A stretch of 64,000 nucleotides of DNA from Gammaproteobacteria bacterium (GTDB lineage Bacteria > Pseudomonadota > Gammaproteobacteria > Burkholderiales > Burkholderiaceae_C). The notes beneath the pieces were generated by a model. The model was not told the DNA's origin. It did no database searches and saw only the letters and a list, made by a program, of their open reading frames with translations. The position numbers and the translations under genes were made by a program. This document shows, in pieces, positions 1-6,046 of this stretch (position 1 is its first letter; the number at the start of each line of letters is the position of its first letter). The stretch is taken from assembly GCA_018828125.1 (NCBI GenBank), contig JAHJWB010000001.1, forward strand, positions 248,001-312,000. The letters are read 5' to 3'.

Positions 1-947
1 GTCACGAGCGTCTGCTGGGGGTTTTGCAGCGGACGCCACAGCCATTCGCCCTCGCCGGTGGCCACCATCAGACCGTCCGAGTCGTGCACCTCGGGTCGAA
101 AGTCTTCCTTGCGGGGCTGGTTCTCCCCAAAGAAAAACATGCTGGTCAGTGGTGCAACCCCCAGCGTGGCGATGGGCTTGCCCGCGGAGGCTCGTACAAA
201 CACCCTGCTGCGCACCGTGGTCGTGGTCTGGGGGCCGGGGGTGATGTCGAATTGGTAGGCGCCGGTAGCCCGGGGCGAATCCATCAGCGCATAGACGGTC
301 ACTTTCGTGGACTGAGCCTGGGGCTTGACCAGCCAGAATTCGGTAAAACGCGGAAACTCCTCGCCCGAACCGCCCACGGTGTCAATGGCAAGACCCCGGG
401 CTGACAGCCCGTACTGCTGCCCTTTGCCCAGCGCGCGGAAGTAGCTGGCACCCTGGAACACGACCAGCTCGTCCTTGTACTCGGGCGAGTTCAGGTGGTT
501 GTGCAGGCGAAAACCGGCGAATCCGAGATCTCCCCAGGTTTGGGGCTTGACCTGGTTTTTCCCGTAGTCGAAATCAGCGCGGCTGTAGCTGATGTGGCGA
601 GTGCCCTCGGGGGGCACTTCGTTGATCAACACGGGCTCCGTCTGATACAGGCCAAGGTGAAAGAACATTGCCTCGAATGGCAACTTATCTGCGCGCCACA
701 AGGCCCGATCAGGGCGCCAGCGGATGTCGCGCACCTGGTCGTAGTTCAGCTTTGCAAGGTCAGCAGGGAGCTTGTCGCTAACAGCCCGGTAGGGCTGGTT
801 CGCACTGTCACGGGCGAGGCGCGTGACATTCTCAAAGTCAAACCCCTGCGCGGAGGCCGCTCCCCCCAGCAGCGAGGCGACCAACACAAACAGCGGCCCC
901 GCTGCTTTGCGGGCGGCTTTAGATAAAGAGGGAGAAACAGCGTACAT
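1..947 (-). CDS. opgG: Periplasmic glucan biosynthesis protein OpgG (MdoG), C-terminus beyond window
   Basis: Periplasmic protein needed to make osmoregulated periplasmic glucans, where it acts on the beta-glucan backbone. About 315 codons are visible; the family is usually around 500 residues, so roughly the last 190 lie beyond the left edge. A Sec signal peptide (basic SKAARKAAG, hydrophobic stretch, cut after ASA) precedes the mature start GFDFENV. Family-typical stretches seen include DLGFAGFRLH, GASYFRALG, YGLSARGLAIDT, GEEFPRF, DSPRATGAYQF, LGVAPLTSMFFFG and HDSDGL...GEGEWLWRPL. The ATG at 947 is the only possible start: there is no ATG, GTG or TTG between it and the in-frame stop at 1005-1007. 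No ribosome binding site is visible. A sigma-54 promoter ends just upstream, so the message may be leaderless. OpgD is a paralogue and remains possible, but the resemblance is closer to OpgG. Confidence 0.9.
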   Translation of the reverse strand, partial: MYAVSPSLSKAARKAAGPLFVLVASLLGGAASAQGFDFENVTRLARDSANQPYRAVSDKLPADLAKLNYDQVRDIRWRPDRALWRADKLPFEAMFFHLGLYQTEPVLINEVPPEGTRHISYSRADFDYGKNQVKPQTWGDLGFAGFRLHNHLNSPEYKDELVVFQGASYFRALGKGQQYGLSARGLAIDTVGGSGEEFPRFTEFWLVKPQAQSTKVTVYALMDSPRATGAYQFDITPGPQTTTTVRSRVFVRASAGKPIATLGVAPLTSMFFFGENQPRKEDFRPEVHDSDGLMVATGEGEWLWRPLQNPQQTLV

Positions 948-960
948 GCCGGCATATAGG

Positions 961-975
961 GCAAACCCTGTGCCA
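961..975 (-). promoter_or_regulatory. Near-consensus sigma-54 promoter of opgG
   Basis: The minus strand reads TGGCACAGGGTTTGC. This matches the sigma-54 consensus TGGCAC-N5-TTGC, with the invariant GG (-24) and GC (-12) separated by ten bases. The predicted start of transcription is about position 949, only two or three bases before the opgG ATG at 947. The match is direct; function is inferred from its position and from the enhancer-like sites upstream. Confidence 0.7.
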
Positions 976-1069
976 GCATGAAAAAACCGTTTTAAATCAA
1001 CAGCTTATGGTGGGTATGGCATGTAAGCGTTTGTACGAGGCGCCTACTCACGCCGTAAACACCGATTTT

Positions 1070-1087
1070 TGTCGCTGATTAGCGACT
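1070..1087. promoter_or_regulatory. Putative GlrR (QseF) enhancer site 1 upstream of opgG
   Basis: TGTCGCTGATTAGCGACT: a 6-bp inverted repeat (GTCGCT/AGCGAC) that fits TGTC-N10-GACA, the site reported for E. coli GlrR, except for the last base. Its centre is about 130 bp upstream of the predicted sigma-54 start, a normal enhancer distance. The cognate-type regulator gene lies immediately upstream. Confidence 0.5.
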
Positions 1088-1105
1088 TCGTAGCCATTGA
1101 TGAGT

Positions 1106-1131
1106 AAAAAGTCTATGTAAATCAAAGACTT
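1106..1131 (-). terminator. Weak intrinsic terminator of the glrK-qseG-glrR operon
   Basis: On the minus strand AAGTCT and AGACTT can pair around an 11-base loop, followed by TTT. The hairpin starts at the glrR stop codon. The stem is only 6 bp and AT-rich, so it may be leaky, which would let the operon read into opgG. Confidence 0.4.
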
Positions 1132-2542
1132 AATCGTGTCGCTCATCTGCGACGTCGTCGCCGCCAGCCCCATCCGTTTTGAAATTTCCGGGGGTCAGGG
1201 CATGTTTCTGCAGCAGCCGATAAAACTCGGTGCGGTTTCGTTGGGCCAGGCGCGCGGCGTCGGCCACGTTCCCGTCGGTCATCTTGAGCAGACCGACCAA
1301 ATATTCACGCTCGAAACGCTGGCGGGCTTCGGTGAAGCTCAGCACCTGAGTTGTGGGGGTGCGCAACGCGCGTTGCACCAGGGTCAGCGGCACCAAGGGA
1401 GTCGTAGACAGGGCGCACACCTGCTCCACCACATTGAAAAGCTGGCGCACATTGCCTGGCCATGCGGCCGTGGTCAGAGCTTTGAGAGCCTCGGGAGCAA
1501 AGCCCGACAGGCGTTTGTCGTATTTGCGGGCCAGCTTGTCGAGAAAGTGGTTGGCCAGCAACGAGATGTCTTCACGCCGTTCTCCCAGGGTGGGCAGCAT
1601 CAGGGTGACCACATTCAGGCGGTAATACAGGTCTTCCCGGAACTGCGCAGTGGCCATCGCGGTTTCCAGATCGCGGTGCGTGGCAGAGATGATGCGCACA
1701 TCAATGGGAATGGACTGGCTGGAGCCTACGGGGCGCACCGCACGTTCCTGCAAGACGCGCAGGAGCTTGACCTGAAGCGCGGGCGGCATGTCCCCGATTT
1801 CGTCGAGCAAAAGGGTGCCGCCTTCGGCGGCCTGGAACAGGCCCTTGTGGTTGCTCACCGCATCGGTGAAGGCGCCTTTGACATGGCCGAACAACTCGGA
1901 TTCCAGCAGAGCCTCAGGAATGGCACCGCAGTTGACGGCCACAAAAGGCTTGGCAGCGCGCGGGCTTGCGCGGTGGATGGCCTGTGCCAGCAGCTCTTTG
2001 CCCGCCCCGCTGTCACCCAGCAGAAGTACGCTGGCATCCGATTGGGCCACCAGATAAGCCTCGGCCAGCAGGTCGGTCATCAGGTTGGATCGGCTGACGA
2101 TGTCGGCACGCCAGGCCTCATTGGCGTGGGCGTGGGTGACCGCGGGCGCGCTGAGCGCCAGTGCCTGGGCAATCTTCTCCAGCAGTTCTTTGCCGTCGTA
2201 GGGTTTGGTCAGGTACGTGAAAACTCCGCGTGAAGTGGCCTCCACGGCGTCGGGGATCGTGCCGTGTGCCGTGAGCAAGATCACGGGCAGGGAGGGATGG
2301 CGGGCACGCACTTCGTCAAACAGCGCCAATCCATCACGGCCAGGCAACCGAACGTCGCTGAGAACCAGTTGGGGCCGCGCCATGTCCAGCTGCGCCAAGG
2401 CGGCCTCGGCGGAGGTCACGGCCACTACGTCGTGGCCAGCCCCATTGAGGCGCAAGGACAACAGTCGAAGCATGTCGGCATCGTCGTCCACGACGAGGAT
2501 GCGGGCGCCTTGGGATGCGCGGGAGGGTGTCTGGGCCGCCAT
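1130..2542 (-). CDS. glrR: Sigma-54-dependent response regulator GlrR (QseF)
   Basis: Response regulator of the GlrK/GlrR (QseE/QseF) envelope-stress system; it activates sigma-54 promoters. Of 470 residues, 14-125 form the receiver with acidic DDD at 19-21 and phospho-acceptor D63 (VLSDVRLPG). An AAA+ domain of about 145-375 carries Walker [24 protein letters not shown], Walker [11 protein letters not shown] and the R-finger region [12 protein letters not shown] Fis-type helix-turn-helix sits near 415-455. The sigma-54-contacting loop reads GAFTDA instead of the canonical GAFTGA, which is unusual and could change its sigma-54 contact. The gene is last in the run glrK-qseG-glrR, 17 bp after qseG. 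Enhancer-like sites lie at and just after its 3' end. Confidence 0.92.
1137..1154. promoter_or_regulatory. Putative GlrR (QseF) enhancer site 2, inside the 3' end of glrR
   Basis: TGTCGCTCATCTGCGACG shares TGTCGCT and GCGAC with site 1, with the same ten-base spacing. It lies 67 bp further upstream, about -196 from the predicted opgG start, and overlaps the last codons of glrR. Two similar sites make chance less likely than one, but binding is inferred. Confidence 0.45.
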
Positions 2543-2559: not shown

Positions 2560-3231
2560 TCAGGGCACTGGCCGCGGTGTGTTGCCACCGTTGGCGGGCG
2601 CTGGGGTGGGGCGTGTTGTCAAGCTGCGCTCAATGGCGCGCACGGCTTCCAGTCGCTCGTTGAGCTGCTCGTTGCGCCGCTGCGCATCTCGCAATTGCTG
2701 GCTTTGCCGGTCCAGCTGATCTTCCAGCCGGCGTTGTTGGAGCAAGCGGGACTCCATCAGGCGTGCCAGTGGGTGCAAAGCCTGGGCAGCCGGGGCATTG
2801 TTGCCCAGTACCCGTTGCACCAGGCCCAACGCGCGTGCGGTGTCGACTGGCTGTCGTGTTTGTGCCAGTGCGACTGCCAGCAGCAGCGGGTTTTCGATCG
2901 CGGATTCTTCCCGTTCGGTCAGGCGGGCGATTTCCTTGGTCAAATCCGCCGAAGTCATGCGCAGCGTCCGGTCTGTCTGCGCGAGGACGAGCACGACAGG
3001 ATCGAAAGCCACGGTTTTTTCCGGCTTTTTGACCGGATCAGCCACCTCCGGTACTGCGGTGGCTGGCGTTTCTACTGCCTCGATGACCGGAGGCCCAGGC
3101 GGTGCAGCGTACGCGGGCGCCTTGGTGCTGCAGCCCGCCAACACCAATGCAGCAGCCATCGACGACACCCACAACGAGGCTTGTCTTAACTCTGATGGAG
3201 CCAGGCGATTCAATAGATAGCTAGTCAACAT
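2560..3231 (-). CDS. qseG: QseG-like lipoprotein of the glrK-glrR operon
   Basis: Predicted outer-membrane or periplasmic lipoprotein of 223 residues: a signal segment ends in lipobox LAGC with the lipidated cysteine at position 34. The C-terminal half is rich in Gln, Arg and Leu and looks coiled-coil. Its start overlaps the 3' end of glrK by 11 bp and glrR follows after 17 bp, matching the enterobacterial order glrK-qseG-glrR, where QseG modulates the kinase. Sequence similarity to QseG (YfhG) is low by eye, so the name rests mainly on position, lipoprotein signal and size. Confidence 0.7.
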   Translation of the reverse strand: MLTSYLLNRLAPSELRQASLWVSSMAAALVLAGCSTKAPAYAAPPGPPVIEAVETPATAVPEVADPVKKPEKTVAFDPVVLVLAQTDRTLRMTSADLTKEIARLTEREESAIENPLLLAVALAQTRQPVDTARALGLVQRVLGNNAPAAQALHPLARLMESRLLQQRRLEDQLDRQSQQLRDAQRRNEQLNERLEAVRAIERSLTTRPTPAPANGGNTPRPVP

Positions 3232-4681
3232 GCGGTAGTTCTATGCGAAAAAATGCGTGGACGCCGTCGTCCACCAACTGAACCCGGCCACCGTGGGCAA
3301 CGACGTACTCGTGGACGATGGACAGCCCAATGCCGGTACCCCGCACGGCGTCAGCGGGCTGGCGGACGCCGCGGTAGAAGGGCTCGAAAATGCGGTCTCT
3401 GTCAGCCCCCGCGACACCGGGGCCCTGGTCCGTGACGTCGATGTGTACTTGGCCCGGCTGGCGCGAAAGTACCAGTCGCACTGTGCCACCTTTGGGGGAA
3501 AAACGGATGGCGTTGGACAGCAGGTTGCTGATGGCGGAGCCGATTTTCTCCGCGTCAATGGGCAGCGCGAGGTCTGGCCCCTCAACGCGCACGCGCAGAC
3601 CTCGCGCCTGCCATTGAAGGCGCTGCGACTCCACCTGCGACTCCAGCAGGGCCAGCATCGGGGTATCTTGTCGCTGCAACTGGCGCGCCTCAAACGCTGC
3701 GGCGTTGAAGCGCAAAAGCGCTTCGATCTCGCCCTGAAGAACCAACGTGTTGTGGTGCAGGATCTGAGCCACCTCGCGCTGGCCGGCGGTGAGTTCACCC
3801 GTCACGCCGTCTTGCAGCAGGGCTACGCCTTCGCGGAGCGCGGCCAGGGGCGTTTTGAGTTCATGGGATACATGGCGCAGAAACCGGGCCTTGTCTGAGT
3901 CCAGTTCCAGCAACCGAAGTCGCAGCCATTCCAGCTGCTGTCCGACGCGGCGCATGTCGTCCGGACCGGAAACCAGAATGGGCTGATTGAGCTGGTTTTC
4001 CCCTAGCTTGCGTATCGCGCCTTCCAGTCGTTTGAATGGGCGCGCGAGCCAGATGCCCAGCGCCAGCGCGAGTGCCAGCGCCAGAACAATTACCCCCACC
4101 ACCTGGTGCGTCACGTTGCGGCGGCTGTCTTCGACACGATCCTGCAGGAGCTGGTTGCGTTGGGTGTTGATGTCCTGCACGGACTGAGCGATGACCGTGT
4201 GCAGAACGTCCAGTGCCACAAACTCTTCAGCGACCTGGCGCTCATTGTCCAGCGCGCGCTCGGGTGGCGCATCCAGCAGCGCTTTGACCGTATCCAGTCG
4301 CTGGCGCCATTGCGAAGCCTGTTCCTGCGGCAGTCCCCCGTTCTGCAACTTTTCCAGAAGGGTTTGGGCCTCCCCGGTCATCTCGTTGAAGCTGCGCCGC
4401 AAGGGGGCGTCGCGCAGCACCAGCGATTGACGCGCTGCTCGCTCCAGCGCCTGTCCGCGCTGGTTGAGGGCCTGTGCGGCCGCATTGAGCGCGGTGGCCT
4501 CTGTCGCCCCGAGGCGACTTTGCATCATGAGTTGCTCCAGCGTGTGCAGCGCCCGCAAAGAACTTACCCCCAGCAAACCCGCAATCAGCAAAAAAGCCAG
4601 CAGCAGCATCTGCTGGAAAGAAAGCCCGTGCAAGGGGCCTTCATTCCTGGGGCGCGCAAGCGGAGTGCTGTCTGCAAACAT
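3221..4681 (-). CDS. glrK: Sensor histidine kinase GlrK (QseE)
   Basis: Membrane histidine kinase expected to phosphorylate GlrR. The 486 residues begin with a transmembrane helix (MLLLAFLLIAGLLGVSSL), then a helical periplasmic region of about 150 residues, a second helix (VVGVIVLALALALALGIWL), a HAMP-like linker, and the kinase core. The phospho-acceptor is H273 in RHVSHELKTPLAALREG. ATP-binding boxes follow: N box ISNLLSNAIRFSP, G1 DQGPGVA, F box IFEPFYRG and G2 GTGIGLSIVHEYV. It is the first gene of a three-gene operon and begins 21 bp after miaB on the same strand, so transcription from miaB may continue into it. The periplasmic region offers no hint of its signal. Confidence 0.9.
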   Translation of the reverse strand: MFADSTPLARPRNEGPLHGLSFQQMLLLAFLLIAGLLGVSSLRALHTLEQLMMQSRLGATEATALNAAAQALNQRGQALERAARQSLVLRDAPLRRSFNEMTGEAQTLLEKLQNGGLPQEQASQWRQRLDTVKALLDAPPERALDNERQVAEEFVALDVLHTVIAQSVQDINTQRNQLLQDRVEDSRRNVTHQVVGVIVLALALALALGIWLARPFKRLEGAIRKLGENQLNQPILVSGPDDMRRVGQQLEWLRLRLLELDSDKARFLRHVSHELKTPLAALREGVALLQDGVTGELTAGQREVAQILHHNTLVLQGEIEALLRFNAAAFEARQLQRQDTPMLALLESQVESQRLQWQARGLRVRVEGPDLALPIDAEKIGSAISNLLSNAIRFSPKGGTVRLVLSRQPGQVHIDVTDQGPGVAGADRDRIFEPFYRGVRQPADAVRGTGIGLSIVHEYVVAHGGRVQLVDDGVHAFFRIELPHVD

Positions 4682-4702: not shown

Positions 4703-6046
4703 CTATGCCGCGAGGACGGGCTCGCGGGTGAGGACCTCGCCCCGCAAGGTATAGGCCTTTGCTTCGGTGATGGCAACTTGAACCATCTGGCCCACCAGAC
4801 GGGGTTGGCCGACAAAATTGACCACGCGGTTGCATTCGGTGCGCCCCATCAGCTCGGTGGTGTCGCGCTTGGAGGCGCCTTCCACCAGGATGCGCTGCAC
4901 TGTGCCCACGCGGCTTTCGCTGATGGATTTGATGTTCGCATTGATGACGCCTTGCAGGTGCTGCAGGCGGCGCAACTTCACGTCGTGTGGCGTGTCGTCG
5001 TGCAGGCCTGCGGCAGGTGTGCCGGGGCGCGGACTGAAGATGAAGCTGAAGCTGTTGTCGAAGTGAATATCGTCGATCAGCTTCATCATCTTGTTGAAGT
5101 CGTCTTCCGTCTCGCCGGGGAATCCCACGATAAAGTCGCTGCTCATGGCCAGATCGGGGCGGATGGCGCGCAGCTTGCGCACTGTGCTCTTGTATTCCAT
5201 GGCGGTGTAGCCACGCTTCATGGCCATCAGAATGCGGTCGCTGCCGTGCTGCACCGGAAGGTGCAAGTGGCTGGCCAGCTTGGGCAACTTGGCATAGGCC
5301 TCGATAAGGCGGGGCGTGAACTCATTGGGGTGGCTGGTGGTGTAGCGAATGCGCTCGATCCCGGGAATGTCCGATACGTATTCCAGCAGCAGGGCAAAGT
5401 CGGCAATCTCTGCGGTATCGCCCATCTTGCCCAGGTAGGCATTCACGTTCTGGCCCAGCAGGGTGATCTCCTTAACGCCTTGGTCGGCCAGCCCCGCCAC
5501 TTCCACGAGCACGTCGTCAAATGGGCGACTCACTTCTTCGCCGCGTGTATAGGGCACAACGCAGTAGCTGCAGTATTTGCTGCAACCTTCCATGATCGAC
5601 ACAAACGCCGACGCGCCTTCGACGCGCGCGGGTGGAAGGTGGTCGAACTTTTCAATCTCGGGGAAGCTGATGTCCACCTGGGGTGTGTCCGTGCGGTCGC
5701 GGTGATTGAGCATCTCTGGCAAGCGGTGCAGGGTTTGCGGACCAAACACCACATCGACATAAGGTGCGCGCTTGATGATGTCAGCGCCTTCCTGGCTGGC
5801 CACACACCCGCCCACGCCAATCTTCACACCCTTGGCCTTCAGGTGCTTGATGCGTCCCAGGTCGCTGAACACTTTTTCTTGTGCTTTCTCGCGCACAGAG
5901 CAGGTATTGAACAGAATCAGGTCTGCCTCATCCACGTTTTGTGTCGGCTCGTAGCCTTGGGCGGCGTGCAGGACGTCTGCCATCTTGTCCGAGTCGTACT
6001 CGTTCATTTGGCAGCCGAAGGTTTTGATGAAGACTTTTTTGGCCAT
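4703..6046 (-). CDS. miaB: tRNA-2-methylthio-N6-dimethylallyladenosine synthase MiaB
   Basis: Radical-SAM methylthiotransferase that converts i6A37 to ms2i6A37 in tRNAs reading codons that start with U. At 447 residues it has the family's usual size. The N-terminal UPF0004 domain carries three cluster-binding cysteines ([33 protein letters not shown]). The radical-SAM CxxxCxxC motif is in [22 protein letters not shown] domain follows ([12 protein letters not shown]...[11 protein letters not shown]). The reading frame is open far upstream, but homology begins at [15 protein letters not shown], so this ATG was chosen. No clear ribosome binding site precedes it. Confidence 0.96.

Follow-up and report, generated by a model that had tools for sequence, protein, structure and literature searches.

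A predicted GlrR-activated sigma-54 promoter for opgGH directly behind glrR in Burkholderiales

Introduction

In a 64,000-nucleotide stretch of a Burkholderiales genome (contig JAHJWB010000001.1, positions 248,001 to 312,000; the whole stretch is referred to here as the window), the opgG gene for synthesis of osmoregulated periplasmic glucans (OPG) lies immediately behind glrR (qseF), which encodes a presumed activator of sigma-54 promoters, and this raises the question of whether the one gene controls the other. To our knowledge, both the triggers of OPG synthesis and the role of GlrR outside the enteric bacteria are poorly known. The comparisons described below indicate that opgG and opgH are very probably transcribed from a sigma-54 promoter that is activated by GlrR and assisted by integration host factor (IHF), situated directly behind glrK, a lipoprotein-like gene and glrR. 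The promoter type is a known one; the direct target, its spread over the family and the locked geometry of its start codon look new. The proposed link is direct, conserved and easily tested, with one regulator, two defined sites and one operon.

Promoter elements upstream of opgG

The minus-strand DNA ahead of opgG contains a near-perfect sigma-54 promoter, as an earlier note on this DNA had described, with the -24 GG and -12 GC correctly spaced and close to TGGCAC-N5-TTGC (Table 1). Two perfect palindromes lie upstream of it as putative upstream activating sites (UAS), with centres at about -130 and -197 if transcription starts near 948, essentially where the same note had placed them (about -130 and -196). 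The note had also found them to fit the GlrR site form TGTC-N10-GACA except for the final base; the single-base departure is real, but on the coding strand, where the sites read AGTC-N10-GACA and CGTC-N10-GACA, it falls on the first base. The gene ending at this point is indeed a glrR orthologue, and the second site is embedded in its last codons. The IHF consensus is WATCAANNNNTTR, and two perfect matches to it, neither of which was listed earlier, are placed between the two UAS and between the proximal UAS and the promoter. The latter interval also contains a partly conserved block, GCACA..tgcTtaCa (window coordinates ~1019-1040 and the equivalent place in relatives), which is not explained by the UAS, IHF or sigma-54 and is possibly a site for another regulator or a sigma-70 promoter.

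The closest parallel is glmY of Escherichia coli, which QseF, assisted by IHF, is described as driving from a sigma-54 promoter by binding three TGTN12ACA sites (PMC6075780); the GlrR site consensus is given elsewhere as TGTCN10GACA (PMC8745638). Upstream of glmY in E. coli K-12 we find TGTCGCTTTCTGGCGACA at -196 and TGTCTCTTTTTAGCGACA at -133 with an IHF-consensus match in between, as well as a weaker site at -229 and TGGCACAGTTACTGC at -27. The opgG region thus shares with glmY the half-sites TGTCGC...GCGACA, the position of the proximal site, an IHF-consensus match between sites, the TGGCAC element, and kinase, lipoprotein and regulator genes nearby, and two of the three glmY sites are 63 bp apart as compared to 67 bp for the pair here. 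Both features of a glmY-type promoter, upstream sites of the TGTC-N10-GACA form and IHF-consensus matches, are present, with the first base of the UAS in the window not being T. The two systems differ in that the target here is the protein-coding opgGH behind glrR whereas in E. coli it is a small RNA gene before glrK, in the number of sites (two here, three there), and in the predicted leaderless message of opgG.

The chance occurrence of these elements was examined in the 5.18-Mb source genome. GTCGCN6GCGAC is present at 11 places as compared to 113 for the reversed control pattern, and although an exact palindrome pair with a gap of 36-66 occurs only once, so does its reversed control; the pair alone is therefore no proof in a single genome, and it is conservation that carries the weight. 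The promoter pattern TGGCAYN5TTGC is found at 56 sites (reversed control, 10), and the opgG site is the only one of these with a palindrome matching at least 9 of 10 positions upstream, 30 of the sites having been read over 350 bases and the other 26 over 400. A wide GlrR regulon in this genome can be rejected for this reason, the other 55 sites having no such palindrome in the 350-400 bases upstream, in a search that is blind to targets with looser elements.

Conservation among opgG loci

We compared the best 80 of 584 confirmed opgG matches, using fixed motif cut-offs. A glrR match is present in the same locus in 73 of the 80, and all 73 have a sigma-54 site and 70 a pair of sites (each matching at least 9 of 10 positions, 60-80 bp apart); L018, L053 and L056 have no regular pair, yet retain one or two sites. 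The earlier note had called for a check of both elements in Comamonadaceae, and their absence from relatives, which would have spoken against its proposal, is not what is found. Exact palindromes are strongly concentrated, with 112 in the 44,233 bp upstream of opgG and two in the other 887,902 bp of the loci (a density ratio of ~1,100). The 140 sites, selected at 9 of 10 positions or better, give the consensus tGTCGCY-N4-RGCGACA, which is nested within TGTCN10GACA, and the flanking bases, which were not used in the selection, are also biased (A in 130 and T in 102 of the 140).

The spacing of the elements is similarly constrained. The two UAS are 67 bp apart in 52 of the 70 loci, and the distance from UAS to TGG is 110-112 bp in 60 of them. 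A perfect IHF consensus is present between the UAS in 39 loci (0.1 expected from shuffled sequences) and in the interval between the proximal UAS and the promoter in 48 (0.3 expected). This conservation, together with the match in motif, spacing and IHF sites to E. coli glmY, supports the earlier proposal that opgG is wired to sigma-54 and GlrR, as far as sequence can tell.

The distal site lies wholly within glrR in half of the loci (35 of 70), and in frame 0 in 29; in the remaining 35 it overlaps the glrR stop codon or starts at most 33 nt behind it. The in-frame sites use the arginine codon CGA without exception (29/29), although CGA accounts for 1.8% of the 1,249 arginine codons in the 35 glrR genes, and likewise the valine codon GTC (29/29, as compared to 22.8% in the same genes). 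The site therefore moves relative to the GlrR protein with its sequence unchanged and with a codon bias of its own, showing that selection is on the DNA and not on the protein. In a series of loci (L024-L028, L030-L033, L035, L036, L038 and others) the distal UAS extends over the glrR stop codon, and a GTGAC-for-GCGAC departure creates the TGA.

Association of the sites with glrR

None of the seven loci without a glrR match (L022, L023, L037, L039, L040, L041 and L044) has an exact palindrome, and one of these (L039) starts almost at opgG with no upstream DNA to read. Locus L022, from Acidovorax sp. SRB_14, has lost the palindromes and retains the sigma-54 core and an IHF-like site, and its assembly contains no GlrR orthologue, the best match (1.4e-85) being at the level of a paralogue. 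What stands before opgG in this locus can be read as the terminal part of the gene found ahead of glrK in the window, and the locus looks like a natural deletion.

Locus L040, from a metagenome-assembled genome binned as Pedobacter, contains two sites matching 9 of 10 positions, 66 bp apart, upstream of opgG (~5809-5969). A sigma-54-like sequence, GGGCACAAAGCTTGC, begins 80 bp beyond the first base of the second site, and a GlrR orthologue (3e-209) is encoded elsewhere in that genome. The combination of degenerate sites with a distant glrR fits a tie to GlrR rather than to adjacency.

Among 150 genomes of the window's family, glrR is present in 38 (E values up to 1e-150) and opgH in 45 (up to 1e-60); 34 have both, four have glrR alone and 11 have opgH alone. 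The stretches ahead of opgH in the 11 opgH-only genomes contain no site pair; opgG was matched in seven of these 11 stretches, and one stretch is only 532 bases long. Within the opgG match of L276, one of the 11, lies the sequence TGGCACACCGCTTGC. Conversely, the regions downstream of glrR in 37 family genomes contain the pair in 34 and the pair with a sigma-54 site in 32; four of the 37 (L236, L238, L240 and L257) coincide with named loci, leaving 33 that are new. Six family genomes lacking glrR have no opgG match at 1e-20, and five with glrR all have opgG-family matches, with opgG adjoining glrR in only one of them (G049).

A predicted leaderless opgG message

The opgG start codon in the window lies 14 nt after the C of the -12 element, and this proximity is general. 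A sigma-54 site is present in 74 named loci, and 71 of these have an in-frame ATG or GTG 12-16 nt after this C, at 13 nt in 60 (where several starts fitted, the one nearest 13 was chosen; if the first in-frame start is counted instead, there is an ATG at 13 in 57 loci). In E. coli glmY the distance from this C to the annotated +1 is likewise 13 nt. There is no AGGA, GGAG or GAGG at -18 to -5 in any of the 71 loci, as compared to 6.4 expected from shuffled sequences, and a Shine-Dalgarno core is likewise absent from every later in-frame opgG start as far as ten codons before aligned residue 36. Among the non-opg targets read, by comparison, nine of 13 carry such a core at the start codon assumed for them, which lies 28-89 nt after the C. 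The close spacing and the absence of a Shine-Dalgarno core lead us to expect a leaderless mRNA, and GlrR-driven transcripts of opgG probably begin at the AUG or within ~2 nt of it.

Three Rhizobacter and Piscinibacter loci (L054, L060 and L080) have no start of the leaderless type and a longer leader; 62-68 nt ahead of aligned residue 36 they contain another palindrome-like site. The 11 family loci in which opgH is the first gene vary more, with an in-frame ATG 13-15 nt after the C in six and only an in-frame GTG in two, and with an ATG at 13 in L184, L185 and L246 that does not share the OpgH reading frame; the spacing rule is therefore weaker in these loci. In L237 and L182 the ATG is out of frame and is followed 2 nt later by an in-frame GTG. 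The out-of-frame ATGs of L184 and L246 (12-13 nt after the C) open similar 66-residue frames, beginning MTALTSPSFAL and MSTLTSPSFAL, which may represent a decayed opgG start or a leader peptide.

GlrR-linked modules in other Burkholderiales families

A strict search for the paired pattern in 399 Burkholderiales genomes yields 28 matches, and, leaving the window aside, seven of the remaining 27 loci lack a sigma-54-like site, by the pattern used, in the 350 bases flanking each side. This search is insensitive, and we therefore read the regions downstream of glrR, which is present in 157 of the 399 genomes (E values up to 1e-110). The pair is present in 21 of 35 such regions from hand-picked genomes of other families, read with fixed motif cut-offs, and with a sigma-54 site in 19. 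As a control, the final 620 bases of all 72 regions (these 35 and the 37 above) were read, and the pair is present there once. Distances from the proximal site to TGG are mostly near 54, 66, 76, 85 and 95, so that successive values differ by roughly one helical turn; 108 and 119 occur once each.

As with opgG, these promoters consist of a palindrome pair and a sigma-54 site just behind glrR, but the genes that follow differ, encoding BON-domain, BON and EF-hand, glycine-zipper, OpgH or unassigned proteins. Pfam scans of 20 hand-picked downstream proteins identify BON domains in ten (three with EF hands), glycine zippers in three and an OpgH-type glycosyltransferase in two, with no match for five; eight of the 20 (L189, L197, L200, L205, L206, L213, L215 and L221) are not behind a regular pair and one (L184) belongs to the window's own family. 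In one further family (f20; L097-L099) opgG follows the module. The module is widespread while its target changes, and the recognisable targets are of envelope type.

Relation to other known systems

The sigma-54 promoter P2 of E. coli rpoE is reported to be activated by GlrR/QseF (PMC6075780) and so also serves an envelope function, although it acts via a sigma factor, with opgG only indirectly downstream. A table in PMC10100675 places opgG under RpoE, and rpoE under GlrR and RpoN, and shows no direct link; an indirect E. coli route can be assembled from these entries. Searches of the open-licence literature (GlrR with opg, RpoN with opgG) found no direct connection between GlrR and the opg genes, in agreement with the earlier note, to whose author none was known; PMC11778176, in the portion concerned, names both opgG and RpoN and draws no connection between them. 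The regulator of a biofilm operon described in PMC5192318 was considered as a relative and rejected, being by its description of the CreB type and unrelated.

Leaderless messages are familiar in proteobacteria, and in Sinorhizobium meliloti 171 leaderless starts have been mapped, with RpoN-type motifs reported upstream of 112 starts (PMC3616915); a sigma-54-driven leaderless message may be among them. As in those messages, the opgG transcript is predicted to start at the AUG. The opgG loci differ in that an activator-dependent sigma-54 promoter is predicted, with near-constant spacing across several genera.

Alternative explanations

Several observations weigh against direct control of opgGH by GlrR. 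The counts are of loci and not of independent events, the 80 being closest relatives that are mutually related, and in other families the module is found behind only part of the glrR genes. As 11 of the 45 opgH-bearing family genomes lack glrR, OPG synthesis does not need it, and in one of these (L271) the sigma-54-like CGGCACGTCTGTTGC, unaccompanied by palindromes, is found some 200 bases ahead of the opgG match; several glrR-bearing genomes (G208, G268, G249, G188 and G013) in turn have no opgG match. Given its retained core and the loss of GlrR, opgG in Acidovorax sp. SRB_14 may be served by another activator or by a sigma-70 promoter. With regard to the regulatory genes themselves, the top NCBIfam model for the window regulator is GlrR, but its score of 613 bits is below the equivalog cut-off of 763, and alignment of the lipoprotein-like protein with E. 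coli QseG gives no significant similarity, so that it is not recognisably QseG.

The SRB_14 locus also bears on the idea that the sigma-54 promoter is real but driven by another activator, with the palindromes serving some other purpose. The genome has seven further strong matches to the sigma-54 activator domain, and opgG of Pseudomonas aeruginosa appears in a table of NtrBC-influenced genes (PMC7214821). However, the exact palindromes accompany an adjacent glrR and are absent from all seven loci without it, they equal the GlrR-type sites of E. coli, and their distances to the promoter are roughly helix-phased, and we regard a different activator as very unlikely. It is also very unlikely that opgG depends chiefly on read-through transcription of the glrKR operon or on a sigma-70 promoter, with the sigma-54 element playing a minor part, even though glrK, glrR and opgG share a strand and the partly conserved GCACA..tgcTtaCa block is possibly a promoter of the latter kind. 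Enhancer, IHF and promoter elements are retained over wide divergence, the pair and the sigma-54 site are also present where opgH is the first gene, and neither promoter-near nor later in-frame starts in the 71 loci, over the range given above, have a Shine-Dalgarno core.

A role of the palindromes as RNA hairpins or as a terminator at the end of glrR is extremely improbable. The GTCGC and GCGAC arms could pair, one palindrome is at the glrR end, and, of 41 departures counted over 150 sites, 15 leave a G-U pair, as in the loci overlapping the stop codon; but only one of the 41 is compensatory, no T-run follows the arms on the coding strand (an A-run is behind the proximal site), and two copies at fixed distances from each other and from the promoter fit a protein-binding site. 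We therefore reject this explanation and return to activation by GlrR.

Proposed mechanism

In the mechanism we favour, GlrK, perhaps tuned by the lipoprotein, would phosphorylate GlrR in response to envelope stress, and GlrR dimers would bind the two GTCGCY-N4-RGCGAC sites ~67 bp apart. IHF is predicted to bend the DNA both between the UAS pair and between the proximal UAS and the promoter, enabling GlrR to remodel the RNA polymerase-sigma-54 complex at TGGCAC-N5-TTGC; expression would require RpoN, the gene for which is present in the source genome. The transcript, beginning within ~2 nt of the opgG AUG, would be translated without a leader, and the resulting rise in OpgG and OpgH would raise periplasmic glucan synthesis.

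More broadly, it seems reasonably likely that GlrR of the Burkholderiales acts as an envelope switch placed in cis, with an enhancer-IHF-sigma-54 module at the 3' end of glrR that serves varying envelope targets (opgG, opgH, BON/OsmY-like and glycine-zipper genes). In many Comamonadaceae the distal site lies in the last glrR codons, and the opgGH mRNA there would be leaderless, with its start codon locked to the sigma-54 start. If so, an activator-dependent promoter is coupled to Shine-Dalgarno-free translation in the Comamonadaceae, and these loci provide a natural set of sigma-54 promoters with the start point expected at the start codon, useful for studies of leaderless translation in Gram-negative bacteria.

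Organization of the locus

All four genes in Table 1 are transcribed leftwards. The full-length OpgG has 522 amino acids, and its gene overlaps opgH (691 amino acids), which lies just outside the window and is seen in a longer version of the locus (L181). The window GlrR is an orthologue of E. coli GlrR (58% identity) with a near-identical recognition helix (compared with RNRTEFYKLL), and E. coli GlrR selects it as the top match among the eight activator loci of the genome; both the GlrR domain set and an adjoining GlrK-type kinase are present, as in GlrK-GlrR (QseE-QseF) systems. Pfam and NCBIfam scans of the lipoprotein-like gene give no match.

Table 1. Coordinates of the opgG promoter elements and neighbouring genes in the window.
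Coordinates	Strand	Feature	Details
961-975	-	Sigma-54 promoter TGGCACAGGGTTTGC	TGGCAC-AGGGT-TTGC (-24/-12)
1071-1086	both	Proximal GlrR-type UAS GTCGCTGATTAGCGAC (+ strand)	Perfect GTCGC-N6-GCGAC palindrome
1138-1153	both	Distal GlrR-type UAS GTCGCTCATCTGCGAC (+ strand)	Perfect GTCGC-N6-GCGAC, inside last glrR codons
995-1007	+	Promoter-proximal candidate IHF site AATCAACAGCTTA	Perfect consensus match
1120-1132	+	Candidate IHF site AATCAAAGACTTA between the two UAS	Perfect consensus match; overlaps glrR stop codon
945-948	-	Predicted transcript start	opgG ATG (945-947) or 1-2 nt ahead of it
3-947	-	5' part of opgG	Pfam MdoG, 1.9e-118
1130-2542	-	glrR (qseF), presumed activator	Receiver domain, sigma-54 AAA+ domain and a C-terminal helix-turn-helix resembling that of E. 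coli GlrR
2560-3231	-	Lipoprotein-like gene in qseG position	LAGC lipobox by eye
3221-4681	-	glrK/qseE-type histidine kinase	32% to E. coli GlrK over 420 aligned positions, E 1e-56

The glrK open reading frame contains one more exact copy of GTCGC-N6-GCGAC, the third in the window, at 4503-4518. Since only two exact palindromes occur outside the stretch upstream of opgG in the 80 loci, this copy is probably due to chance.

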